Under the pieces are notes generated by a model that saw only the letters and a program-made list of their open reading frames with translations, was not told the origin of the DNA and did not search any database. A program made the translations under genes and the position numbers. A stretch of DNA of 14,915 bases from Spirochaetaceae bacterium (lineage in GTDB: Bacteria; Spirochaetota; Spirochaetia; DSM-27196; PWMO01): positions 1-14,915 of the forward strand of contig PWMO01000017.1 of the NCBI GenBank assembly GCA_003558175.1. The letters are read 5' to 3'. Shown piece after piece: positions 1,903-14,587 of the stretch (positions are counted from its first letter, which is position 1; every line of letters begins with the position of its first letter).

Positions 1903-3444
1903 TCATGCTCGCGAAGCGGCTCGTGCGGTCCGAACGGGAGCCAATGCGGAGAACACAAGTGCCGCGGCCGTCACAAGCAGCGCGGCGGCGAAGCGGGGCG
2001 TCTCACGTGGGAAAACGGAGGTGATAAACAGATATTCCTGCCGTGACGCCCACACCACGGCCCCGGTCATGGCCAGCGCAGTCACGAGTTCGACGCCGCG
2101 AGGCCAGACCGAGGCAAAGCGGCCGAGTGCGACACGCCGCTCACCAGCTGCCAAACCGAAGAGAACGGTCACCGTTCGCCACACCGCAAATAGAAACAGC
2201 AGGCTTACCAGGATCCTCATGGAAGTCACCGCGCCGCTGATCCGCGACATTCCCACCGGACCGAGTCCGACCCAGCGCGACCAGTCCCCGAGGATGTGTG
2301 CCATGAAGGGCCAGCTGCGCTGGCTGTTTGTCAGAATGACAATGGCGTCCCCGGTACCCGGTATCGCGTGGAAGTGGGTCATCCAGCCAAGCCCCTGCCC
2401 CCCGTGCCAGACCGCCGCAGATCCCCCCGGCAACTGCTCCAGGAAATGGCCGAGCCCGTAGCTGTCGGAAACCGTACCGAAGATCCCCGGGATGGCAACC
2501 TGCGGGGCGTACAGCTCGGCTCGGGCTGCAGCGGAGAGCACTGGAGACCCCGCCACATCGCCCGGCGCTTTCGCCGTAGCCGCCGCAAAGCGCCCCAGAT
2601 CGTGGATCGTGGCGAAGAGCCCCCCGCTCGCCCGGTTGGGGTAGAGAAACGGTTCGACGGGGGTACCGTCGATGCGGTAGCCCAGCGGCACCTCCCAATG
2701 CGGGTCCCAGTCGAAGCGCGCGGCGTGCATACCCAGCGGCTGCAAGACCTCGGTTTCCATGTACTCGGCAAATGCACGCCCGGTGACGCGTTCGACCAGG
2801 AGTTCCAACAGGGCATAACTTGAGTTCGAATAGGCGAAACCGGAACCTGGCTCGCGGAACAGCCGAACGGAATCCCCCACCAGCCCCGCTTCCAGCGAAG
2901 GGATCGGCTGTCCGGGGGCGTAGTGCACGCCGATGGGACCCAGCGGAACCCCCGCGTTCAAGCTCAACAGGCGCCGCACGGTTACCGCGCGTGCGTCATA
3001 GCGGGAGTCGGGAAACTGCCATTCACCCAGGTAGTCTACTACCGGATCGTCCAGACCAATCAGCCCCTGATCCACCAGCCGCATCACGCCCCACGCCGTG
3101 ACCGACTTGGAGATCGAGTGCGCCATCATCATGTGCCCGGTGGATAGCGCAACGCCCACCTCACGATCGGCGTAGCCGAAGGCGTTTGACCAGATCGGCT
3201 CGCCGTCGTGCACCAGCAGCACGCTCACGCCCGGGATTTCGCCGGCGCTCATGCTCCGGCTGATCGCGGCTTCAAGGTGGCTGACAAACTCTTGTGCATT
3301 GAGCGTCGCGAGATCGGGATTGCGCGCGCCACCGGCAAGATGCAAGGCGATCAATACGACAGCGGCGACCAGTGTACCCACGTGGATCGTCGTGTGTAGT
3401 CGCCGCTTTAGCGAAGACAACGCTCTCTCATCTGAAACGGTCAC
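1903..3444 (-). CDS. Membrane-anchored serine hydrolase, beta-lactamase/PBP-like, with C-terminal TM helices
   Basis: Protein of 513 residues of the class C beta-lactamase/esterase fold (Pfam Beta-lactamase). All three active-site motifs are visible: SISK (nucleophile S110, K113), YSN at 205-207, and HGG at 347-349 in place of KTG. An N-terminal hydrophobic segment (about 22-38) should anchor it with the catalytic domain outside the cytoplasm. Three or four further hydrophobic segments follow the domain (about 409-430, 452-467, 484-503). Likely activities are D-amino-acid peptidase, esterase or related hydrolysis in the cell envelope. True antibiotic hydrolysis cannot be claimed. The GTG start at 3444 has AGGAG 9 nt upstream. 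It follows a second serine hydrolase gene on the same strand after a 161-bp gap holding an 18-bp tandem repeat, so the two may be one unit. The gap downstream to the TetR promoter is short and shows no clear terminator. Confidence 0.88.
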   Translation of the reverse strand: MTVSDERALSSLKRRLHTTIHVGTLVAAVVLIALHLAGGARNPDLATLNAQEFVSHLEAAISRSMSAGEIPGVSVLLVHDGEPIWSNAFGYADREVGVALSTGHMMMAHSISKSVTAWGVMRLVDQGLIGLDDPVVDYLGEWQFPDSRYDARAVTVRRLLSLNAGVPLGPIGVHYAPGQPIPSLEAGLVGDSVRLFREPGSGFAYSNSSYALLELLVERVTGRAFAEYMETEVLQPLGMHAARFDWDPHWEVPLGYRIDGTPVEPFLYPNRASGGLFATIHDLGRFAAATAKAPGDVAGSPVLSAAARAELYAPQVAIPGIFGTVSDSYGLGHFLEQLPGGSAAVWHGGQGLGWMTHFHAIPGTGDAIVILTNSQRSWPFMAHILGDWSRWVGLGPVGMSRISGAVTSMRILVSLLFLFAVWRTVTVLFGLAAGERRVALGRFASVWPRGVELVTALAMTGAVVWASRQEYLFITSVFPRETPRFAAALLVTAAALVFSALAPVRTARAASRA

Positions 3445-3558
3445 CGCGAGTTTCTCCTACAGACAAGCTGCCGATAGATGTGCGAAATCGACGGCGGCGA
3501 AACCGGTCGCTGGTTCGCGCACCGTCATAGGTCTTGCGGGAAAACCCCGTCCTATCCA

Positions 3559-3598
3559 GTACCGGTATCGTGCCACGTACCGGTATCGTGCCACGTAC
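3559..3598. repeat. 18-bp tandem repeat, 2.2 copies
   Basis: The unit GTACCGGTATCGTGCCAC occurs at 3559-3576 and again identically at 3577-3594, followed by the first four bases of a third copy. Each unit contains the 8-bp palindrome TACCGGTA. It lies in the 161-bp gap between the two serine hydrolase genes. It could be a pair of regulator sites, a local slippage duplication, or part of the folded mRNA between the two genes. I see no T-run that would make it a terminator. Confidence 0.85.
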
Positions 3599-3605
3599 GG
3601 GCATT

Positions 3606-4763
3606 TCACCGCTTGAGTCCCTCGATCTCGTGCAGAACTCTGGGAACGAACCGGAACGGAAGCGGAGCGGCAGTGGCCTGATCGACGCAGCCGGCAAGGT
3701 AGAGATCGAGTTCGCCACAGTAGAACAGCCAGGTTCCGGTGGAACCGGTGTGGCCGATCACCGGGGGTATCCGCCGCAACGGCGTCAAGGCGCGGGGCAG
3801 AGCGAGTCGCATCATTCCCGCCCCGTACTCTATCGGTGATCGCGGGAGCCGGAAGGCCGAGCGATCCCAGAATTGGGAGAACCGACGAAAGCTGCCGTAC
3901 AGAACGGCGCCGGTCTGCGGATTATCAAACAAAGTCCCGGACATGAGAGCACGAAGAAACAGTATCAGATCAGCGGTCGTGCTGTAGATGTCGCGGATGG
4001 ACTCCAGGGCAAGCGGCAGCACCAGCGGTTGATCCCCTGCCCACGGCGTCGAGGGCGTAATCGGCATATCCCGCGGCGGTCGTTCGGGCAGCCAGGTAGT
4101 ACGCAGACCGAGCGGCTCGACGATTTCCTGCTGGTATATGTCCGGCAGCGTCCGGCCCGTCACCGATTCGATGATCGCCATCAGCAACTGGAATCCGGTG
4201 TCCGAATAACGTACCAGCGGCCTGGCGGCGTTGAGGTCCTGTGGCGGGAAATGGGGCGTCAGCTCGTCGCGGACAACTGCGGCGACTGCTTCAATATCAA
4301 ACCTGCGATCATTCCCGGCAAAGAGCCGGTCGATCAGCGGCAGCTTGCCCTTCGCTCGGTCCTCGAGCCAGTCGGGAAGCCCCGACATGTGGCACAGCAA
4401 GTGCGACACGGTGATCTGCCCGGAATAATCGGTACCGTTCAGCCGGTGCAGTCCATCGGTCACCGTCCGCGGCAGATAGTCCGCCATCGGGGCATCCAGG
4501 CGGACCGCCCCCCGTTCCACCAGTTTCAACAGCGCAGCTGCTATGAACAGCTTGGTGATGCTCGCGGTGAAAAACGGCGTCTGCGGCCGCATCGGCGTGC
4601 CGTCGGGATGCGCGGAACCCGACACGAAGACCCGCTGGTAGGACCGGTCGCCATTTTCGATGGCAAAGATGGCGTGGTGTATTGTCTTCTTCCTGGTCAG
4701 GGCATCGACCATCCGCTGAATGCGGCCGTCGAGACTGCTTGCGTTACCGGCGTTCACGTGCAT
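3606..4763 (-). CDS. Serine hydrolase, beta-lactamase family, probably cytoplasmic
   Basis: Protein of 385 residues with the class C beta-lactamase/EstB fold. SITK gives nucleophile S68 and K71, YSD at 186-188 replaces the usual YxN, and HTG at 338-340 is the third motif. There is no signal peptide or membrane segment, so an intracellular esterase or peptidase is more likely than a cell-wall enzyme. It is the first gene of a probable pair with the membrane hydrolase at 1903-3444, but sequence identity between them appears low, so they are not a recent duplication. The ATG at 4763 has no Shine-Dalgarno. A -10-like TATATT ends 6 nt upstream, suggesting a leaderless transcript. A later in-frame ATG (residue 18) also lacks a good ribosome-binding site. 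Family assignment is firm and substrate is unknown. Confidence 0.87.
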   Translation of the reverse strand: MHVNAGNASSLDGRIQRMVDALTRKKTIHHAIFAIENGDRSYQRVFVSGSAHPDGTPMRPQTPFFTASITKLFIAAALLKLVERGAVRLDAPMADYLPRTVTDGLHRLNGTDYSGQITVSHLLCHMSGLPDWLEDRAKGKLPLIDRLFAGNDRRFDIEAVAAVVRDELTPHFPPQDLNAARPLVRYSDTGFQLLMAIIESVTGRTLPDIYQQEIVEPLGLRTTWLPERPPRDMPITPSTPWAGDQPLVLPLALESIRDIYSTTADLILFLRALMSGTLFDNPQTGAVLYGSFRRFSQFWDRSAFRLPRSPIEYGAGMMRLALPRALTPLRRIPPVIGHTGSTGTWLFYCGELDLYLAGCVDQATAAPLPFRFVPRVLHEIEGLKR

Positions 4764-5140: not shown

Positions 5141-5488
5141 ATGAAACGAATCCTTTTCATAGACGATGAGAAGCAGATTCTCGACTCGGTGCAGTTGATC
5201 CTGGAAACGATGGGCTACCAGGTCGTGACGCACGAGACTGCTACCGAGGGTCTTCAGACCGCGTTAAACGATTCGTTCGATCTGATCCTGGTGGACATCC
5301 GTATGCCCGAAATGAACGGCGCCGAGGTAACAGAAGAGATTTTGCGCAACAAACCGCAGGCCTCGGTACTTGTACTCACCGTGTACCCCTCCGACCCTCT
5401 CGCCCGGCGCGCACTGGAGTCAGGAGCGTGCGGCCTGGTCCGCAAACCATTCGAGGTGGCGAAAATTCTCGAGCATCTCGAGGAGTAA
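5141..5488 (+). CDS. Single-domain response regulator (receiver only)
   Basis: Protein of 115 residues that is one CheY-like receiver and nothing else. The acidic pocket is D8-D9, the phospho-acceptor is D52 in LVDIRMPEMNG, and the switch residues are T80 and K102 in the VRKPF motif. It has no DNA-binding or enzymatic output domain, so it must act by binding a partner or passing phosphate on. AGGAG 8 nt before the ATG gives a strong start. The next gene, a FapA/DUF342 protein, begins 6 bp after the stop and its ribosome-binding site overlaps the end of this gene, so translation is likely coupled. A histidine kinase fragment lies at the far end of that gene (6826-7041). The original arrangement was probably receiver, FapA and kinase, and the kinase that phosphorylated this protein may be gone from the locus. 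Confidence 0.93.
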   Translation: MKRILFIDDEKQILDSVQLILETMGYQVVTHETATEGLQTALNDSFDLILVDIRMPEMNGAEVTEEILRNKPQASVLVLTVYPSDPLARRALESGACGLVRKPFEVAKILEHLEE

Positions 5489-5494
5489 CTCGAA

Positions 5495-6979
5495 ATGCGA
5501 AAACAACAGAAACAGCTGGGAGCTGATCGGATATCCGAGGTGCTGCATGAGTCCGAGCAGCTCATCAATGAACTCAAGGCCTTCACGACGGAACCCGTAG
5601 AACAGAACCAAGTCCAACTTGAAGAGAATCTGCGGCGTGAGGCACAGAGACGATTTCGCAGCGTACCCAACTACGGTGAATACGTTCATATCGATGGATA
5701 CGTCGAAATCTCCCTCAGCGATGACGGCATGGCGGCTTATGCGGATTTCTATCCGCCGTCGGAAGGAATGCAACCGCTGGCCCTTGATGAAGTTTATCGT
5801 CAGATTGACGAGTGTGGCGTAACGCACGGCGTCGATCATCGGTTGATCAAGGATTGCCTGATGCGCTGCAATCTCGAACATACAGAGGTCTCGAACGTGC
5901 TGATAGCGCGTGGGACGCCTCCTTCCGACGAGGTTCCGGAACACCTGGTGCCGGACATACAGGCGGAGAAGCTGCCCACGGCGCCGCGCGTAACTGCCGA
6001 CGAACGGGTGGATTTCCGCGCCCTCTCTCCGTACGTTCTGGTAAGCTCCGGTGAGCGCGTGGCCCACGCCGTTCCGTTACAGCGCGGAGTTGAAGGGAGG
6101 TCGGTACGCGGCGAGACGGTGCCCTACGGGCGTCGCCCGGTGCGGTCCGTGAAGGCGGGAGCCAACACCACGCAAACCGGCGAAGGCCTGTTCGCGGCGA
6201 GCGACGGAATTCTCAAGCTTGACGGCGACACGGTCAACGTGGAGCAGGTGCTGGTGATTGACGGAGATGTGGATTACCACACCGGGCACATTGAGTTCCC
6301 GGGCGATATCGTCATCCGGGGACAGATCAAGGATGGGTTTCAGGTGCACGCGGGCGGGTCGATCTACTGCGAGAATACCATGGACGCCTCCGATGTAGTT
6401 GCCGGCGGAGATCTGGTCATCAGCCGCGGACTGATCGGGCGCCGCAGCGGTACCGCTCGGGTCGGTGGGAGCCTGCAAGCCAGGTTCATTGAGAACTGCT
6501 TTGTAGAAGCGCAGAGTGGCGTCAGGATTGAAGCCGGCATTCTGAACTCCCAGGTATACACAAAAGGAACCATTGAAGTCGGACCGCGCGGGATAGTAGT
6601 GGGAGGACGACTCTACGCCCAGCAGGGCTGTGTACTGACCCATATCGGCACCGAGGCCGGTCCCAAGACCGAAGTCTCTTGCGGGACAGACTACGCGGTG
6701 GAACAGAAGCTTGACTGGATTCGAGAACAGAGCGCGCGAATTGCGGCCAAGTTGAAAGAGATACGAGTCCTGCGGCACGGCGCCCAGCACGTGACGACTG
6801 TAGCCCCGTCTGCAGCCCAGACTGAACCGCCGCGCGCGCCCACGAACCGTTCTTCAGCACGCGGTTCCTCGGTCGAGGCCTCGGGCTCTCGGCGGTCTAC
6901 GGAATCGTCCGGGCGCACGACGGCGCGCTCCACATTGAGAGCGAGCCCGGAAACGGGACTCGCGTGGACGTCTATCTGA
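5495..6979 (+). CDS. FapA-like DUF342 protein with an aberrant C-terminus
   Basis: Protein of 494 residues. After a charged N-terminal helix (1-60) comes a FapA N-terminal-like domain (about 62-150). A right-handed beta-helix typical of DUF342/FapA polymer-like proteins follows (about 240-395), with repeats such as [21 protein letters not shown] and [14 protein letters not shown] short coiled coil (about 405-430) ends the recognisable part. FapA proteins in other bacteria affect polar flagellar assembly and signalling, and the role here is unknown. From about residue 444 the sequence turns into a Ser/Arg/Thr-rich tail ([14 protein letters not shown] and on). It is simply the wrong-frame reading of histidine kinase DNA, so roughly the last 50 residues are not native. 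The body may still fold. The gene is coupled to the receiver gene 6 bp upstream. Whether this truncated allele functions cannot be told. Confidence 0.85.
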
Positions 6980-8331: not shown

Positions 8332-8718
8332 TCAGGACGCCGGCGGGTTGAGCGCCTTGCCGATTGTCTGTTTCAATTCGTCGAAGCTGAACGGCTTCGC
8401 AATGGTGGCCGACGCCCCGAGCATGCGGGCAGCATCAAGAAACTGCCTGCCGACCGGGTTCCCCGACATCACGATTACCGGAAGCTGCGGCTCGCGCTTG
8501 CGCAAGGCGCGGACAAACTCTATCCCGTCCATCTCCGGCATCACGATGTCGCAGATCACCAGGTCCGGCGGGTCTTCCAGGCCCATCGAGAGTGCCTTTC
8601 GAGCATCGGTTGCCGCCGTTACCCGGTACCCCGCAGGCTCCAGCAGCATTGTCAGTGAGTCAGCAATCGCCGGCTCATCGTCTATGATCAGTATGTGGGG
8701 CCGTTTCCCCTCTCCCAT
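8332..8718 (-). CDS. Single-domain response regulator, partner of the B12-domain kinase
   Basis: Protein of 128 residues consisting of one receiver domain. Acidic pocket D13-D14, phospho-acceptor D57 in VICDIVMPEMDG, switch S85 in VIVMSGNP, and K108 in AKPFSFDEL. It has no output domain. I chose the ATG at 8718 because GAGG lies 6 nt upstream and the receiver fold starts immediately after. A longer in-frame extension to 8874 would read antisense-like sequence of the kinase tail. The gene overlaps the 3' end of the kinase gene by 44 bp, so the two are translated together and this receiver is almost certainly the target of that kinase. With no DNA-binding domain, the signal must pass to another protein, either by binding or by a phosphorelay outside the window. 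Confidence 0.92.
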   Translation of the reverse strand: MGEGKRPHILIIDDEPAIADSLTMLLEPAGYRVTAATDARKALSMGLEDPPDLVICDIVMPEMDGIEFVRALRKREPQLPVIVMSGNPVGRQFLDAARMLGASATIAKPFSFDELKQTIGKALNPPAS

Positions 8719-10840
8719 CGGTTTCCTCTTGTGGTTCTGTCTTTTCTGCGCGGCGGTCGACAGCATCACCTGCCTGCGCCGTGCGGGCAGCGCCGCTGTC
8801 CATAGCGGCGCCATCGCCGCTCCACGGGCCGGTCGCAGTACGGCCAAGGCAAACGTCAACCTGCGTCCCGGCACCGGGCTCGCTGCTGATCACCAGTTGG
8901 CCGCCGTGCGCGCGGGCAATCCCGTAGGCCGCCGAGAGACCGAGTCCGCGCCCAAGCACTTTGGTGGAGAAAAACGGCTCGAGTGCGCGCGCCGCCGTCC
9001 GTGCGTCCATCCCTTTACCGGTATCTTCAATTCTGATTACCACTTGCCCGCCACCCTCGTAACCCGCGCCCAGGCCGGTGTCCTCAGCCTCGCTCGAGAA
9101 CGTGGACACCCTGATTCGCCCCTGCGAATCGATCGCCTCTTCGGCATTCCGCAGCAGGTACTCAATCAGCTCACCAAGCTGCCGCCGGTCGGAGGCTATT
9201 TCCAGGTCACCCAGTCCCGGTTCAAGCGTGATCTCGATTTCGGGAGCCAGGTGTCGCGCAAATCGCGACACCGCGTCGTTCACGGCAGAGTCAACCTTGA
9301 CTGCTCCGTACTTCCCAATTCCGCCGGTTGCGAACTCCAGCATCCGTTTTGCCAGTTCGGCGGCACGCATGGTGCCTTCCCGTATACCGGTCAGCGCACG
9401 CTGCATCGACGCTCGCGGCAGCTCCGCCAGTTGAAGCGTCTCAGTATATCCCAGAATGCCGGCCAGCAGGTTGTTGAGTTCATGTGCCGCACCAGAGGCG
9501 AGTGTCTCCGCGCTCTGCAGCCGGCTGGCCCGCAGCAGCAACTCCTCGGACTGCTTTTCGCGTGTCACGTCGCGCAGCACGAGCACCGCACGCGCCACCG
9601 TGCCCTCAGCGGCAGACACGGGAAACAGACGCAACTCAAAATGACGCGCTGCGCACTCAACGCTCTGCACCTGCGCCACGGCCGTCCTGATGGTTGTTTG
9701 CGCCAGTTCGACCATCTTTTGCGACAGATGATCGTCCGAGAGCTCGGGATCGCCTGTCGCTTGGCCCAGAAAAACATTGGCCAGCCTGCTGCCGCGGAGA
9801 GCATTCTTGTCGACACCGGCCTGGTCTGCCATGGCGGCGTTGGCCGTCTCAACGCGCAGCTCGGCGTCTACAAGGGCCATCGCGTCCTGCGATCCGTCGA
9901 GCAGCGCCGTGGCAGTCTCTTCACTTAACCGCAACCGGAGCTCGATCTTGCGTTGCTCGTCCAACGTACGCTGCAGCGCGACCCGGTCTTTCTGCAGCGC
10001 CCGTGACAACCGCTCGAGCTCGTCGTTAAGACGTGCCACCGTTGCGAATGCGGCTGCGTCTGAAGTCGTTCCAGGACGTTCCAATCGTTCCCGCTCAGAC
10101 CACTGATACGGGGACTGATACGGAAACTGCCTGCCCCGCACCGGTTGTTCATCGGTCCGCAGCCATTCCGCCGACTGCTGCAGCGCGCCTTCCAGCGTCA
10201 GCGCAACTGCGTCGTAGGGCTGCAGTTGCTGTCCAATTTCGGGCTGCCCCTCAATCAGCCGACCGCCCACCAGGAGGTGCGGCCGAGATTCGTCCGGCAT
10301 ACGTTGTACCGACTGAACAAGCTGCAGCAGACTTCCAAGATTGCGTTCCATTGAGATGGAGATCGCCAGAATGAATGGCGCACGCTGCGCAACGTAGGCA
10401 AACATATCCGCCAACGGCGCAGAGGCCCCCACGTAGTCCACGTCCCAGCCGTGTACTTCCATCGCGTCGGCCGCAAGTCGTGCGCCGAGAGAATGTTCTT
10501 CACCGGGTGCGCAGCAGAACACGACCAGCGGTTTAGACGGCTCCTTTTGCACGTGAAGAGAATAGAGTACCGAGACTACACGGGTGATGATAGAAGTCAC
10601 CAGGTGCTCTTGCGCTGCACTGATGTCCCCGGCTTCCCAGAGTCTGCCCGTCTCGTACATCAGCGGAGTCACCGTCGAGCGATAGAACTCGACCAGTTGC
10701 TCCGGCCCTACTACCGCGGTGCGCGCAAGCCGCAGTGCGGCCCGCTCGTCGCCCCCGAGTGAACAGGACAACAGTTCCTCGGCAAGTGGGCCAAGCACGC
10801 GATTGCTGCCGCCGTTGTCGTGATTGTCATGCCCGCTCAT
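8675..10840 (-). CDS. Cobalamin-binding (CarH-like) PAS histidine kinase
   Basis: Protein of 721 residues. Residues about 17-95 form the helical cap of B12-binding sensors, with W68, E78 and H79 matching the W-x9-EH arrangement that contacts adenosylcobalamin in the CarH photoreceptor. Residues about 103-225 form the Rossmann-like B12 domain, with PGEEHSLG giving H116 as likely cobalt ligand. A coiled coil (about 265-305) leads to a PAS domain (about 310-425). The kinase core follows: H453 in GAAHELNN, N-box N565 in LLRNAEEAI, G1 at EDTGKGM (605-611), G2 at GRGLGLS (630-636). A 55-residue polar tail ends it. No membrane segment, so it is cytoplasmic. It likely senses B12 level or light and phosphorylates the overlapping receiver at 8332-8718. 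GAGG lies 7 nt before the ATG. Domain calls are strong and the stimulus is inferred. Confidence 0.92.
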   Translation of the reverse strand: MSGHDNHDNGGSNRVLGPLAEELLSCSLGGDERAALRLARTAVVGPEQLVEFYRSTVTPLMYETGRLWEAGDISAAQEHLVTSIITRVVSVLYSLHVQKEPSKPLVVFCCAPGEEHSLGARLAADAMEVHGWDVDYVGASAPLADMFAYVAQRAPFILAISISMERNLGSLLQLVQSVQRMPDESRPHLLVGGRLIEGQPEIGQQLQPYDAVALTLEGALQQSAEWLRTDEQPVRGRQFPYQSPYQWSERERLERPGTTSDAAAFATVARLNDELERLSRALQKDRVALQRTLDEQRKIELRLRLSEETATALLDGSQDAMALVDAELRVETANAAMADQAGVDKNALRGSRLANVFLGQATGDPELSDDHLSQKMVELAQTTIRTAVAQVQSVECAARHFELRLFPVSAAEGTVARAVLVLRDVTREKQSEELLLRASRLQSAETLASGAAHELNNLLAGILGYTETLQLAELPRASMQRALTGIREGTMRAAELAKRMLEFATGGIGKYGAVKVDSAVNDAVSRFARHLAPEIEITLEPGLGDLEIASDRRQLGELIEYLLRNAEEAIDSQGRIRVSTFSSEAEDTGLGAGYEGGGQVVIRIEDTGKGMDARTAARALEPFFSTKVLGRGLGLSAAYGIARAHGGQLVISSEPGAGTQVDVCLGRTATGPWSGDGAAMDSGAARTAQAGDAVDRRAEKTEPQEETDGRGETAPHTDHRR

Positions 10841-12410: not shown

Positions 12411-13328
12411 ATGGACGCGCCCTTACTGCCTCTGGTCATGGCAATGTCGATACTGCTGCAGCTGGCGTCGGCTGTGGTTGCGTTACTCCTCATCGCAAAA
12501 TCCGGCTTTCATCGACCATGGTTCTTCCTGGCCGGGGCGGTCTCCCTGATGGCCATTCGGCGCATCGTCAGCTTTGTCCCCATGCTGGAGGAAGGACACT
12601 TCCCGCAATCCGCAATGGCGCCGGAACTGATCGCGCTGGTAATCTCGGCACTCATGCTGTTGGGTTTGCTTCTGTTCTTTCCCGAGTTCCGCCTCTTGAT
12701 CAAGAAGAAGAACCTGGAACTCTCTGCCCGCGACACACTGATCCGCGAGTCTCATCACCATGTGAAGAACGATCTGCAGCGCCTGCAGAGCTTGATACGC
12801 CTGCAACGCAACTCGCCGGCAAACCGGCACGACCTGCCGCTTCTGCGCGACCTGGAAACCCGCATTCGGGCGTTTTCGCTGCTGCACGAACACCTCTACC
12901 GCGGCGGCTCCGAGACCGGGATATCCTTCAGCAGTTATCTCGGACAGCTCGCACGGGCGGTGGCGGAGAACTATCACGACCTGCCGGTCGGTCTCACCCT
13001 GGAGCTCACCGATATCCCTATCAATAGGTCGGATCTGATTCACTGTGGCCTGATTGTCAACGAAGCGCTCACCAACTCGTTCAAGCACGCGTTTGCCGGA
13101 ACGCAGAATCCGCAGATAACGGTTACCAACCGCCGCATCGCCAACCGTATGGTGCTCACCGTATCGGACAACGGCGTCGGGCTGGCACCGGAAGCTGTCG
13201 ACGGAGAGTGCGATTCATTCGGTCTCTCACTGGTGCGCGGAATCTGTTCCAGTCCGGGATGGCAATTGTCTATTCGAAGCTCCGGCGGCACCGAGATTGA
13301 ACTGTCGTTTCCTCAGTCGGCCGACTGA
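12411..13328 (+). CDS. Membrane HisKA_2-type sensor histidine kinase
   Basis: Protein of 305 residues. Three hydrophobic segments (about 7-29, 36-55, 70-91) form a small membrane domain with almost no extracellular loop. A short linker leads to a HisKA_2 dimerisation domain with ESHHHVKNDLQ (phospho-His H115 or H116). This is the PdtaS-like pattern, but with H and D where most members have R and N (HHRIKNN). The ATPase follows: N box IVNEALTNSFKHAF (N217), G1 SDNGVGL (D253), G2 reduced to SFGLSLV. It probably senses something in the membrane and phosphorylates a receiver encoded elsewhere, as none is adjacent. GGAGG sits 4 nt before the ATG, somewhat close. The gene converges on another HisKA_2 kinase and their ends overlap by 16 bp. 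The kinase class is sure and the signal is unknown. Confidence 0.92.
   Translation: MDAPLLPLVMAMSILLQLASAVVALLLIAKSGFHRPWFFLAGAVSLMAIRRIVSFVPMLEEGHFPQSAMAPELIALVISALMLLGLLLFFPEFRLLIKKKNLELSARDTLIRESHHHVKNDLQRLQSLIRLQRNSPANRHDLPLLRDLETRIRAFSLLHEHLYRGGSETGISFSSYLGQLARAVAENYHDLPVGLTLELTDIPINRSDLIHCGLIVNEALTNSFKHAFAGTQNPQITVTNRRIANRMVLTVSDNGVGLAPEAVDGECDSFGLSLVRGICSSPGWQLSIRSSGGTEIELSFPQSAD
13313..13328. repeat. Perfect 16-bp palindrome containing both convergent stop codons
   Basis: TCAGTCGGCCGACTGA reads the same on both strands. It supplies the last four codons and stop (Gln-Ser-Ala-Asp-stop) of the rightward kinase and exactly the same of the leftward kinase. It could form a GC-rich stem in either transcript, but there is no T-run on either side, so intrinsic termination is doubtful. 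Confidence 0.95.
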
Positions 13329-14587
13329 ACCGGTTCACCCGGCGCGTTACACTGAAAGCGTATTGAGACGCGCGTTCCCTGCTCGCGCTCTATCAGCAGT
13401 TCTCCCTTCAGCTGATCCGTCATGGCCGTCACAACGGTCCAGCCAAAGCCGCCGCTCGTCTGCGGGTCGAACGAGTCACTGATTCCCGTTCCGTTGTCCG
13501 ATACCTGCAACAGATGGCAGGTCTCGTCCGCGAGCACACCGGTTTGTTTGGTAGGGTGCGGCGAGCGAAAGGTTACTTCGATCCGTCCCGGCCGCCCGTC
13601 TATGAAGGCGTGTTTGAATGCGTTCGCGACCAGTTCGTTCACAATAATTCCGATGGCCGACAGCGTTCGCGCGTCGAGCCGGGCGTCGTCGATATCGGTG
13701 TGCAGCTCCGCCTGCCCTGCCCGGTCGGCGTTACGCACGATGTCGCCCGCCAGCGAAGAAAGGTAGTCGCGCACCGAACCGCCCCCGGTGATCTCGGAAC
13801 GATACAGTTCGTCGTACAGCACCATCATGCTGTGAACCCTGGCTTTTGCCGCCGACAGTGCGTTTGCCGCAGCGCTGTCTTCGATGTTCCCGGCTTGCAG
13901 CTGCAGCAGCCCGCTCACCGTCTGCATGTTGTTCTTGATGCGGTGGTGAACCTCGCGCAGCAACAGCTCCTTTTCTTCCAGCAGCTCACGAATGGTGCGC
14001 TCGTCCGTTGCGTGGCGCCGCGCGGCGCGCCACAGGTAGACCGAGAATGCGCCCACCAGCACGGCGACGGCCAGCAGACCGAGAATGATCATCCGGTTGC
14101 GTTGCTCGAGAGCTCGCTCCGCCCGAATGCGTTCAGTCTGGTCGAGCACGATGGAGAACAGCAGCTCCGCATCGTCAATTGTCACCGGGTAGGAATACAC
14201 CTGCACATCACGAACCGAACCGTCCGCCAGCAGGTGGCGAAAACTGAAATAATTCTGCTCGTCACGACGGGCAAGTTCCATCTCAGCGGCAACTTCTTCC
14301 GGGCTCAGCTGGTTGATTCGGTCGATGTTCTTCCCCACCAGGTCCGGATAGCCGTAGAAATCTCGAGCGGCACGGTTCGCGTTGCGGATCCGTCCGGTGT
14401 CGGGCTCGATCAGCAGCATCGCGGTACCGTGGTACTCAAACACGTCATCAATCTCGATTACCTGTGCATTGTGCTCCTCGCTTTGTGGCACCACGCCGTC
14501 GGCGTACTGCGGCCTTGGGTCAGCATACAGGCCCGGAACGCCGTACAGAACAAGCAGGAGGAGACAAGAGGTCTTGAAGCGATGCAT
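13313..14587 (-). CDS. HisKA_2-type sensor kinase with signal peptide and extracytoplasmic PAS domain
   Basis: Protein of 424 residues. A signal-like N-terminus (SCLLLLVLYGVPGLYA, likely cut after about residue 22) is followed by a PAS domain (about 45-155, with GRIRNANRAARDFYGY). One membrane helix (about 167-185) and a HisKA_2 kinase core come next: H box REVHHRIKNNMQ (H214 or H215), N box IVNELVANAFKHAF (N317), G1 SDNGTGI (D364), G2 GGFGW. The order places the PAS domain outside the cytoplasm, where it could bind a small ligand. Most PAS domains of this sequence type are cytoplasmic. The core resembles the convergent kinase at 12411 but has the canonical HHRIKNN. No receiver is adjacent. 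The ATG has no Shine-Dalgarno and the -10 box lies 8 nt upstream, so the mRNA may be leaderless. No later start would keep the signal sequence. Confidence 0.92.
   Translation of the reverse strand: MHRFKTSCLLLLVLYGVPGLYADPRPQYADGVVPQSEEHNAQVIEIDDVFEYHGTAMLLIEPDTGRIRNANRAARDFYGYPDLVGKNIDRINQLSPEEVAAEMELARRDEQNYFSFRHLLADGSVRDVQVYSYPVTIDDAELLFSIVLDQTERIRAERALEQRNRMIILGLLAVAVLVGAFSVYLWRAARRHATDERTIRELLEEKELLLREVHHRIKNNMQTVSGLLQLQAGNIEDSAAANALSAAKARVHSMMVLYDELYRSEITGGGSVRDYLSSLAGDIVRNADRAGQAELHTDIDDARLDARTLSAIGIIVNELVANAFKHAFIDGRPGRIEVTFRSPHPTKQTGVLADETCHLLQVSDNGTGISDSFDPQTSGGFGWTVVTAMTDQLKGELLIEREQGTRVSIRFQCNAPGEPVQSAD

Follow-up and report, generated by a model that had tools for sequence, protein, structure and literature searches.

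Can a cobalamin photoreceptor module of the CarH type act on a histidine kinase (HK) instead of on DNA? This question is raised by a gene on contig PWMO01000017.1 of a Spirochaetaceae bacterium, a stretch of 14,915 bp that is called the window below. The frame running from 10840 to 8675 on the minus strand encodes a 721-aa protein in which a CarH-type cobalamin-binding domain (CBD) is followed by a helical linker, a PAS domain and a complete histidine kinase. Related CBDs frequently precede kinase genes in other bacteria, and we regard the protein as a putative adenosylcobalamin (AdoCbl)-dependent photoreceptor kinase, with light or B12 as its presumed stimulus.

A CarH-type cobalamin-binding domain heads a complete histidine kinase

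The kinase, its domains and the adjoining receiver are located in the window as follows.

8675..10840, minus strand: sensor histidine kinase, 721 aa, CBD - helical linker - PAS - HisKA - HATPase
10565..10783, minus strand: four-helix cobalamin cap, B12-binding_2, residues 20-92, with G65xxW68 and E78H79 (Pfam, 45.5 bits)
10235..10525, minus strand: Rossmann B12-binding domain, residues 106-202, with the ligand H116, G138xxxP142 and G192-G193, columns that vary little or not at all among relatives (Pfam, 47 bits)
9896..10063, minus strand: long helix between CBD and PAS, residues 260-315 (AlphaFold2 model, pLDDT about 59-76)
9554..9901, minus strand: PAS domain, residues 314-429 (PAS_4, 54.7 bits)
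9326..9505, minus strand: HisKA phosphoacceptor domain, residues 446-505, H453 (31.9 bits)
8846..9190, minus strand: HATPase_c catalytic domain, residues 551-665 (55 bits)
8332..8718, minus strand: stand-alone receiver, 128 aa, D57 and K108 (Response_reg, 98.3 bits)

The original prediction, made by eye from the DNA, named the W-x9-EH residues W68, E78 and H79 and a histidine in EEHSLG, and all of them are present exactly at these positions. Their placement in the cap had been set beforehand as one test that could refute the idea. The predicted cap helices span residues 18-28, 32-42, 46-69 and 75-96; in the stretch G65RLW68...E78H79, W68 falls within the third helix and E78/H79 within the fourth, and the ligand H116 lies within EEHSLG (114-119). 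The protein thus combines a four-helix cap and a B12 Rossmann fold with Wx9EH in the cap helices and the His ligand in ExHxxG, as in a CarH-type module.

Sections of PMC11796333 give GxxW, EH, GxxH and GxxxP as the light-response motifs of CBDs, based on four tested proteins and one negative control. All four are found here, as G65/W68, E78/H79, G113/H116 and G138/P142. The B12 motif reads ExHx2G-x41-SxS-x28-GG; the classic motif is given as ExHx2Gx41SxV/Tx22-27GG in the excerpted literature. When residues 1-237 were shuffled 20000 times, GxxWx9EH arose 15 times and Wx9EH 132 times. The frames of the two other B12-binding_2 matches in the same genome, one of them cut at a contig end, did not contain Wx9EH. 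By analogy with these families, the CBD would bind AdoCbl and lose the adenosyl group upon illumination.

The prediction of a PAS domain and a complete histidine kinase in the same chain was also borne out. B12-binding_2, B12-binding, PAS_4, HisKA and HATPase_c each scored above their own Pfam cut-offs, and we found H453 in HELNN, N565, DTGKGM at 606, EPFFST at 621 and GRGLGL at 630. We take these to be the H, N, G1, F and G2 boxes, the complete set of a HisKA-class kinase. In the AlphaFold2 model, residues 673-721 and part of the PAS domain are of low confidence, and the helix 260-315 is taken as the signalling linker. The receiver begins with an ATG at 8718, and the last base of the kinase stop codon is 8675, so that the two genes overlap by 44 bp, as originally described. 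The receiver carries its phosphoacceptor D57 in CDIVMPEMDG and K108 in AKPF, as expected of a partner receiver, and the overlap suggests it as the putative phosphate acceptor of the kinase.

Relation to CarH and photocobilins

The CarH/LitR AdoCbl photoreceptor repressors (TtCarH 5c8a-f, CtMerR 8jbs/8jbt) have a DNA-binding output. In contrast, the window protein has a kinase output; the Pfam scan revealed no helix-turn-helix (HTH) domain in it, and the CBD helices start at residue 18. Scoring 55.6 bits on the NCBIfam CarH model NF052513, whose cut-off is 400, it falls outside the CarH repressor family proper. Moreover, W68 is followed by E69, at the place where TtCarH has H132, so that the bis-His step of TtCarH is unavailable to this CBD. 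Sections of PMC11796333 list H132, which makes the bis-His light state, in TtCarH, Arg in CtMerR, Gln in SasPcob and Tyr in AbDPcob, and the position thus varies among other light-responsive CBDs. GxxWx9EH is present in 80 of the 81 relatives described below; its Trp is followed by Gln in 41 of these carriers, by Glu in 36 and by His, Ala or Ser in one case each. Within this sample, a His at the position is thus exceptional.

The nearest solved relatives, and the best matches in both sequence and fold, are photocobilins (SasPcob 8j2w/8j2x and the Acidimicrobiaceae protein 8j2y), which are closer than CarH. Despite these matches we rejected an identity as photocobilin, since no Phycobilisome or globin domain was found in the protein at E 0.01. 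The available space is the stronger argument, because Pfam at times misses this domain, though it found it in the relative L106; the longest unassigned stretch covers about 80 residues (233-313). Hence, the originally drawn comparison with CarH holds for sequence, fold and signature, but not for the closest relatives or for the bis-His step.

Related domains precede kinase genes in many phyla

To place the CBD among its relatives we used a named-genome scan with alignment A1, from which the best 80 of at least 486 relatives were kept as loci, so that the sample is skewed to close kin; a first scan, before this alignment, gave no match. A kinase frame directly followed the CBD in 47 of 81 frames, plus one fusion, compared to 37 of 668 control frames of the same loci at equal gap limits (an earlier count with unequal limits gave 35 of 288 control pairs). 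The 81 rows are related to each other, and a Fisher p of this count overstates their independence. By record titles and lineages, the 48 kinase-coupled loci span at least 13 phyla, including Spirochaetota, Bacteroidota, Chloroflexota, Bacillota, Pseudomonadota and Planctomycetota, with many metagenome-assembled genomes (MAGs) among them. Their CBDs carry Wx9EH in 47 cases, the His motif in 47 (E or D accepted at its first position), GxxxP in 45 and the G of GxxH in 35. In these pairs the same sensor module stands directly ahead of a kinase, but in two genes and mostly with a kinase of another clade than that of the window protein.

In addition, we found CBD-HK fusions, among them L099 (a Polyangia MAG), P0127 and P0144. 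Like the window protein, these place the CarH-type CBD ahead of HisKA-HATPase within a single chain. However, they carry about 135-155 residues without Pfam identity ahead of the CBD, an extension that the window protein lacks, and their H-box reads HDLRNP or HELRNP with no PAS listed, compared to HELNN and a PAS domain in the window protein. Among the 120 matches listed, of 321 in total, in a database search with the L099 CBD, GxxWx9EH was present in 119 and HisKA in 12, 11 of which also had HATPase; neither PAS nor Phycobilisome was listed for those 12. At least 120 residues precede the CBD in 46 of the 81 relatives. In L106 this N-terminal part matched Phycobilisome with 30.7 bits and, weakly, allophycocyanin chains, and is thus photocobilin-like, while Pfam did not find Phycobilisome in the N-terminal parts of nine other scanned relatives, L099 included.

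The recurrent gene order and these fusions back the proposal that a CarH-type module acts on kinases. We also noted a CarH-type CBD frame of 253 aa (L136, 7896-8654, plus strand) on a contig labelled methanogenic archaeon (Methanobacteriaceae MAG UBA587), with a weak kinase match nearby.

Closer to the window, the CBD matched in 25 of 46 genomes in the order, counting its own, and in only one (G002) of five other same-genus genomes. Among 31 fetched frames, all from the order except one from the class, a kinase frame directly followed the CBD in nine (L054, L055, L057, L058, L061, L067, L070, L073 and L079), and in L056 a kinase lies about 0.4 kb after it. The same order was found in four (L195, L196, L198 and L200) of 11 further stretches, ten of them from the wider class. 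We take this class to be Spirochaetia, since the same-class stretch L204 matches L090, a Spirochaetaceae MAG, at 100% identity over 10868 bases.

Three pairs, picked by eye among 12 loci listed, were covered by the domain scan. In L056 (G037:C79, 1427-6386, minus strand), from a genome of the same order, CBD, HK, receiver, KaiB and KaiC follow each other on one strand, a possible case of B12-light input adjoining clock-type genes. In L054 (G037:C106, 721-6524, minus strand) CBD, HK, an unknown gene, Lycopene_cyc and an Amino_oxidase-family gene share one strand; the last presumably resembles CrtI, by our own reading, and the pair would then adjoin what look like carotenoid genes. In L079 (G039:C14, 4258-7727, minus strand) a heme oxygenase frame precedes the CBD, which is followed by a PAS histidine kinase akin to that of the window. 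No light-linked neighbours were recognised in the remaining pairs of the 12, which were judged by eye. In a different combination, the CBD of L063 (G043:C33, 5389-6399, plus strand), with Wx9EH, is fused to a Cro/CI-type HTH_3 and not to a MerR domain; 12 more kinase-less CBD frames (11 from the order, one from the class) cluster with it in the CBD tree, the HTH_3 scan having covered L063.

The fusion is a new variant with a different kinase

In the searches made, which were limited and in no case exhaustive, a second protein with the window architecture was not found. A database search drew 7995 candidates by shared words, and among the 106 proteins listed only the window protein had a B12 domain; a further architecture search returned only the protein itself. 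The CBD profile matched in at least 189 of 297 class genomes, own included, and no kinase domain was found in the long CBD frames opened from G130, G049 and G187. In 392 phylum genomes (E 1e-36, with two candidates scored in each) matches came from 15 other genomes and were confined to the part of the protein from residue 267 onwards. The genome search called for originally yielded CBD-HK fusions with an N-terminal extension, but not the same architecture. CBD-coil-PAS-HK without this extension is a new variant, seen once in these searches. The coupling of sensor to kinase is not new in kind, because CBD-then-HK pairs are widespread and other fusions exist.

To trace the kinase, we built a tree from 97 of 229 collected domains: the window kinase, 57 partner kinases, the L099 fusion, the 23 best database matches of the window kinase and 15 random others. 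One branch of 65 rows (100/96) contains 53 of the 57 partners and the L099 fusion. The window kinase lies outside it, in a 23-row set (100/97) of which 21 rows are its own best database matches, CckA-named hybrids included. These matches were chosen by likeness to the window kinase, which partly explains their closeness to it but has no bearing on its distance from the partner clade. The window fusion therefore appears to have arisen separately, with the sensor joined to a kinase of another class, and we rejected the idea that it is a plain fused form of the common pair. Only the L079 pair fits that idea, being grouped beside the window kinase (94/93), though unsurely because both branches are long. 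Across the linker, PAS and kinase portions (489 columns) the two are 30% identical, and the L079 pair is a possible two-gene counterpart.

In the CBD tree, from which L081, L082 and matches under 150 residues were left out, the smallest starred set with the window CBD (100/92) holds eight other rows: L053, L084, L085, L086, L090, L091, L115 and L119. All eight have about 160-210 residues ahead of the CBD, in which no Pfam family was found at E 0.01. From these extended neighbours we considered that the window fusion might have arisen through loss of an N-terminal domain.

Proposed mechanism and alternative explanations

We propose that the protein is probably a photoreceptor kinase that depends on AdoCbl. 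Before illumination, the cap and the Rossmann domain would hold this cofactor between them in its base-off form, H116 lying beneath it and W68/E78/H79 surrounding the adenosyl group. Light with a wavelength of up to about 530 nm would break the Co-C bond and release the adenosyl group, upon which the cap and the CBD dimer contact would rearrange without bis-His ligation, E69 replacing H132. The change would pass via the 260-315 helix and the PAS domain to the HisKA helices and shift the kinase/phosphatase balance at H453, with phosphate going to D57 of the co-encoded receiver. In this scheme cofactor, photolysis, dimer contact and phosphotransfer would follow the respective families, while sequence, motifs, predicted fold and gene order are as described above.

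We weighed this proposal against three alternatives. The kinase could follow the presence or form of cobalamin (AdoCbl versus none or hydroxocobalamin, OHCbl), light being incidental. Wx9EH has been described, in the literature as excerpted, as critical for AdoCbl binding itself and is therefore alone no proof of a light role, and no Rfam family, hence no cobalamin riboswitch, reached gathering score in the window, so that a B12 response could be protein-based. On the other hand, according to sections of PMC11796333, signature-bearing exemplar proteins were light-responsive and the lone control without the signature bound only OHCbl. Together with the light-linked neighbours of the three sister pairs picked by eye, this makes such a cobalamin-status sensor rather unlikely. 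Less likely still is a kinase with PAS as the real sensor, in which the CBD serves as scaffold or dimerisation module or has drifted from its cobalamin function. In its favour, the CBD sits on a long branch (end branch 2.06; 35% identity at best), and the whole protein finds its best database matches in PAS kinases that lack a CBD; despite this divergence, however, the columns that are invariant or almost so among the relatives, including the cofactor-contact residues, are retained.

The genome assembly is fragmented (550 contigs, 76.58% complete), the architecture was seen once, and the M24-peptidase relatives in the same-genus genomes G001, G003 and G005 have no kinase neighbour and no match to ten other window proteins in the stretches fetched, the G005 contig ending at the gene. 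Nevertheless, a degenerate or artefactual fusion is very improbable, as the kinase frame is uninterrupted, its GC per codon position is similar along its length except in the C-terminal tail, where that of second positions rises, the linker, PAS and kinase portions can be aligned with the kinase after the L079 CBD elsewhere in the order, and other CBD-HK fusions exist. We confirm the observation as real and well-formed, and its earlier interpretation is partly supported.

Locus and host context

The genes adjoining the kinase encode a member of the tartrate dehydrogenase family (above the NCBIfam cut-off) and an M24 peptidase family member, and give no pointer to light. Among the genomes of the family, tartrate-dehydrogenase relatives reach at most 40% identity. 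The genome contains a PF01923 adenosyltransferase and an SQS_PSY gene; a heme oxygenase had no match in this 76.58% complete genome. A promoter scan found none where 1.1 were expected.

Elsewhere in the window, a second stand-alone receiver is followed by a FapA-family frame matching 176 of 272 positions of PF03961, with a serine/arginine-rich tail (5141-6979, plus strand). Two HisKA_2 kinases, one on each strand, lie tail to tail with a 16-bp overlap (12411-14587), and two large adjoining frames (1903-4763, minus strand) resemble, by eye, beta-lactamase-family serine hydrolases.

Cobalamin-photoreceptor kinases

Links of CBDs to signal transduction have probably been noted before, judging from the titles of Cheng 2016 and Schneider 2022. 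Wherever the excerpted literature tests the output of a B12 photoreceptor, the target is DNA binding (CarH) or an attached enzyme domain, for instance a diguanylate cyclase (photocobilins). Sections of the photocobilin paper PMC10979010 describe many CarH-like CBDs fused to enzyme or chromophore domains, with reference to Cheng 2016 and Schneider 2022. 'Histidine kinase' is absent from the main text of that paper, as is 'kinase' from that of PMC11796333. In the literature on CBD, CarH or photoglobin with histidine kinase, PMC7689651 and PMC10572898 included and subscription papers mostly outside this coverage, we recognised no tested B12-light kinase.

Tentatively, the window protein might exemplify a large, uncharacterised group of cobalamin-photoreceptor kinases. 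It would form a two-component system based on B12 and gated by green light, with its light module in the kinase and without bilin partner or bis-His ligation; in some related genomes, members of the group adjoin carotenoid, heme oxygenase or KaiBC clock genes. With a compact CBD-kinase and the receiver in the next gene, gating of phosphotransfer by AdoCbl photolysis is directly testable. If true, the system would show how a light signal is relayed in the absence of H132, and it could supply a kinase module for green light that does not depend on bilin.
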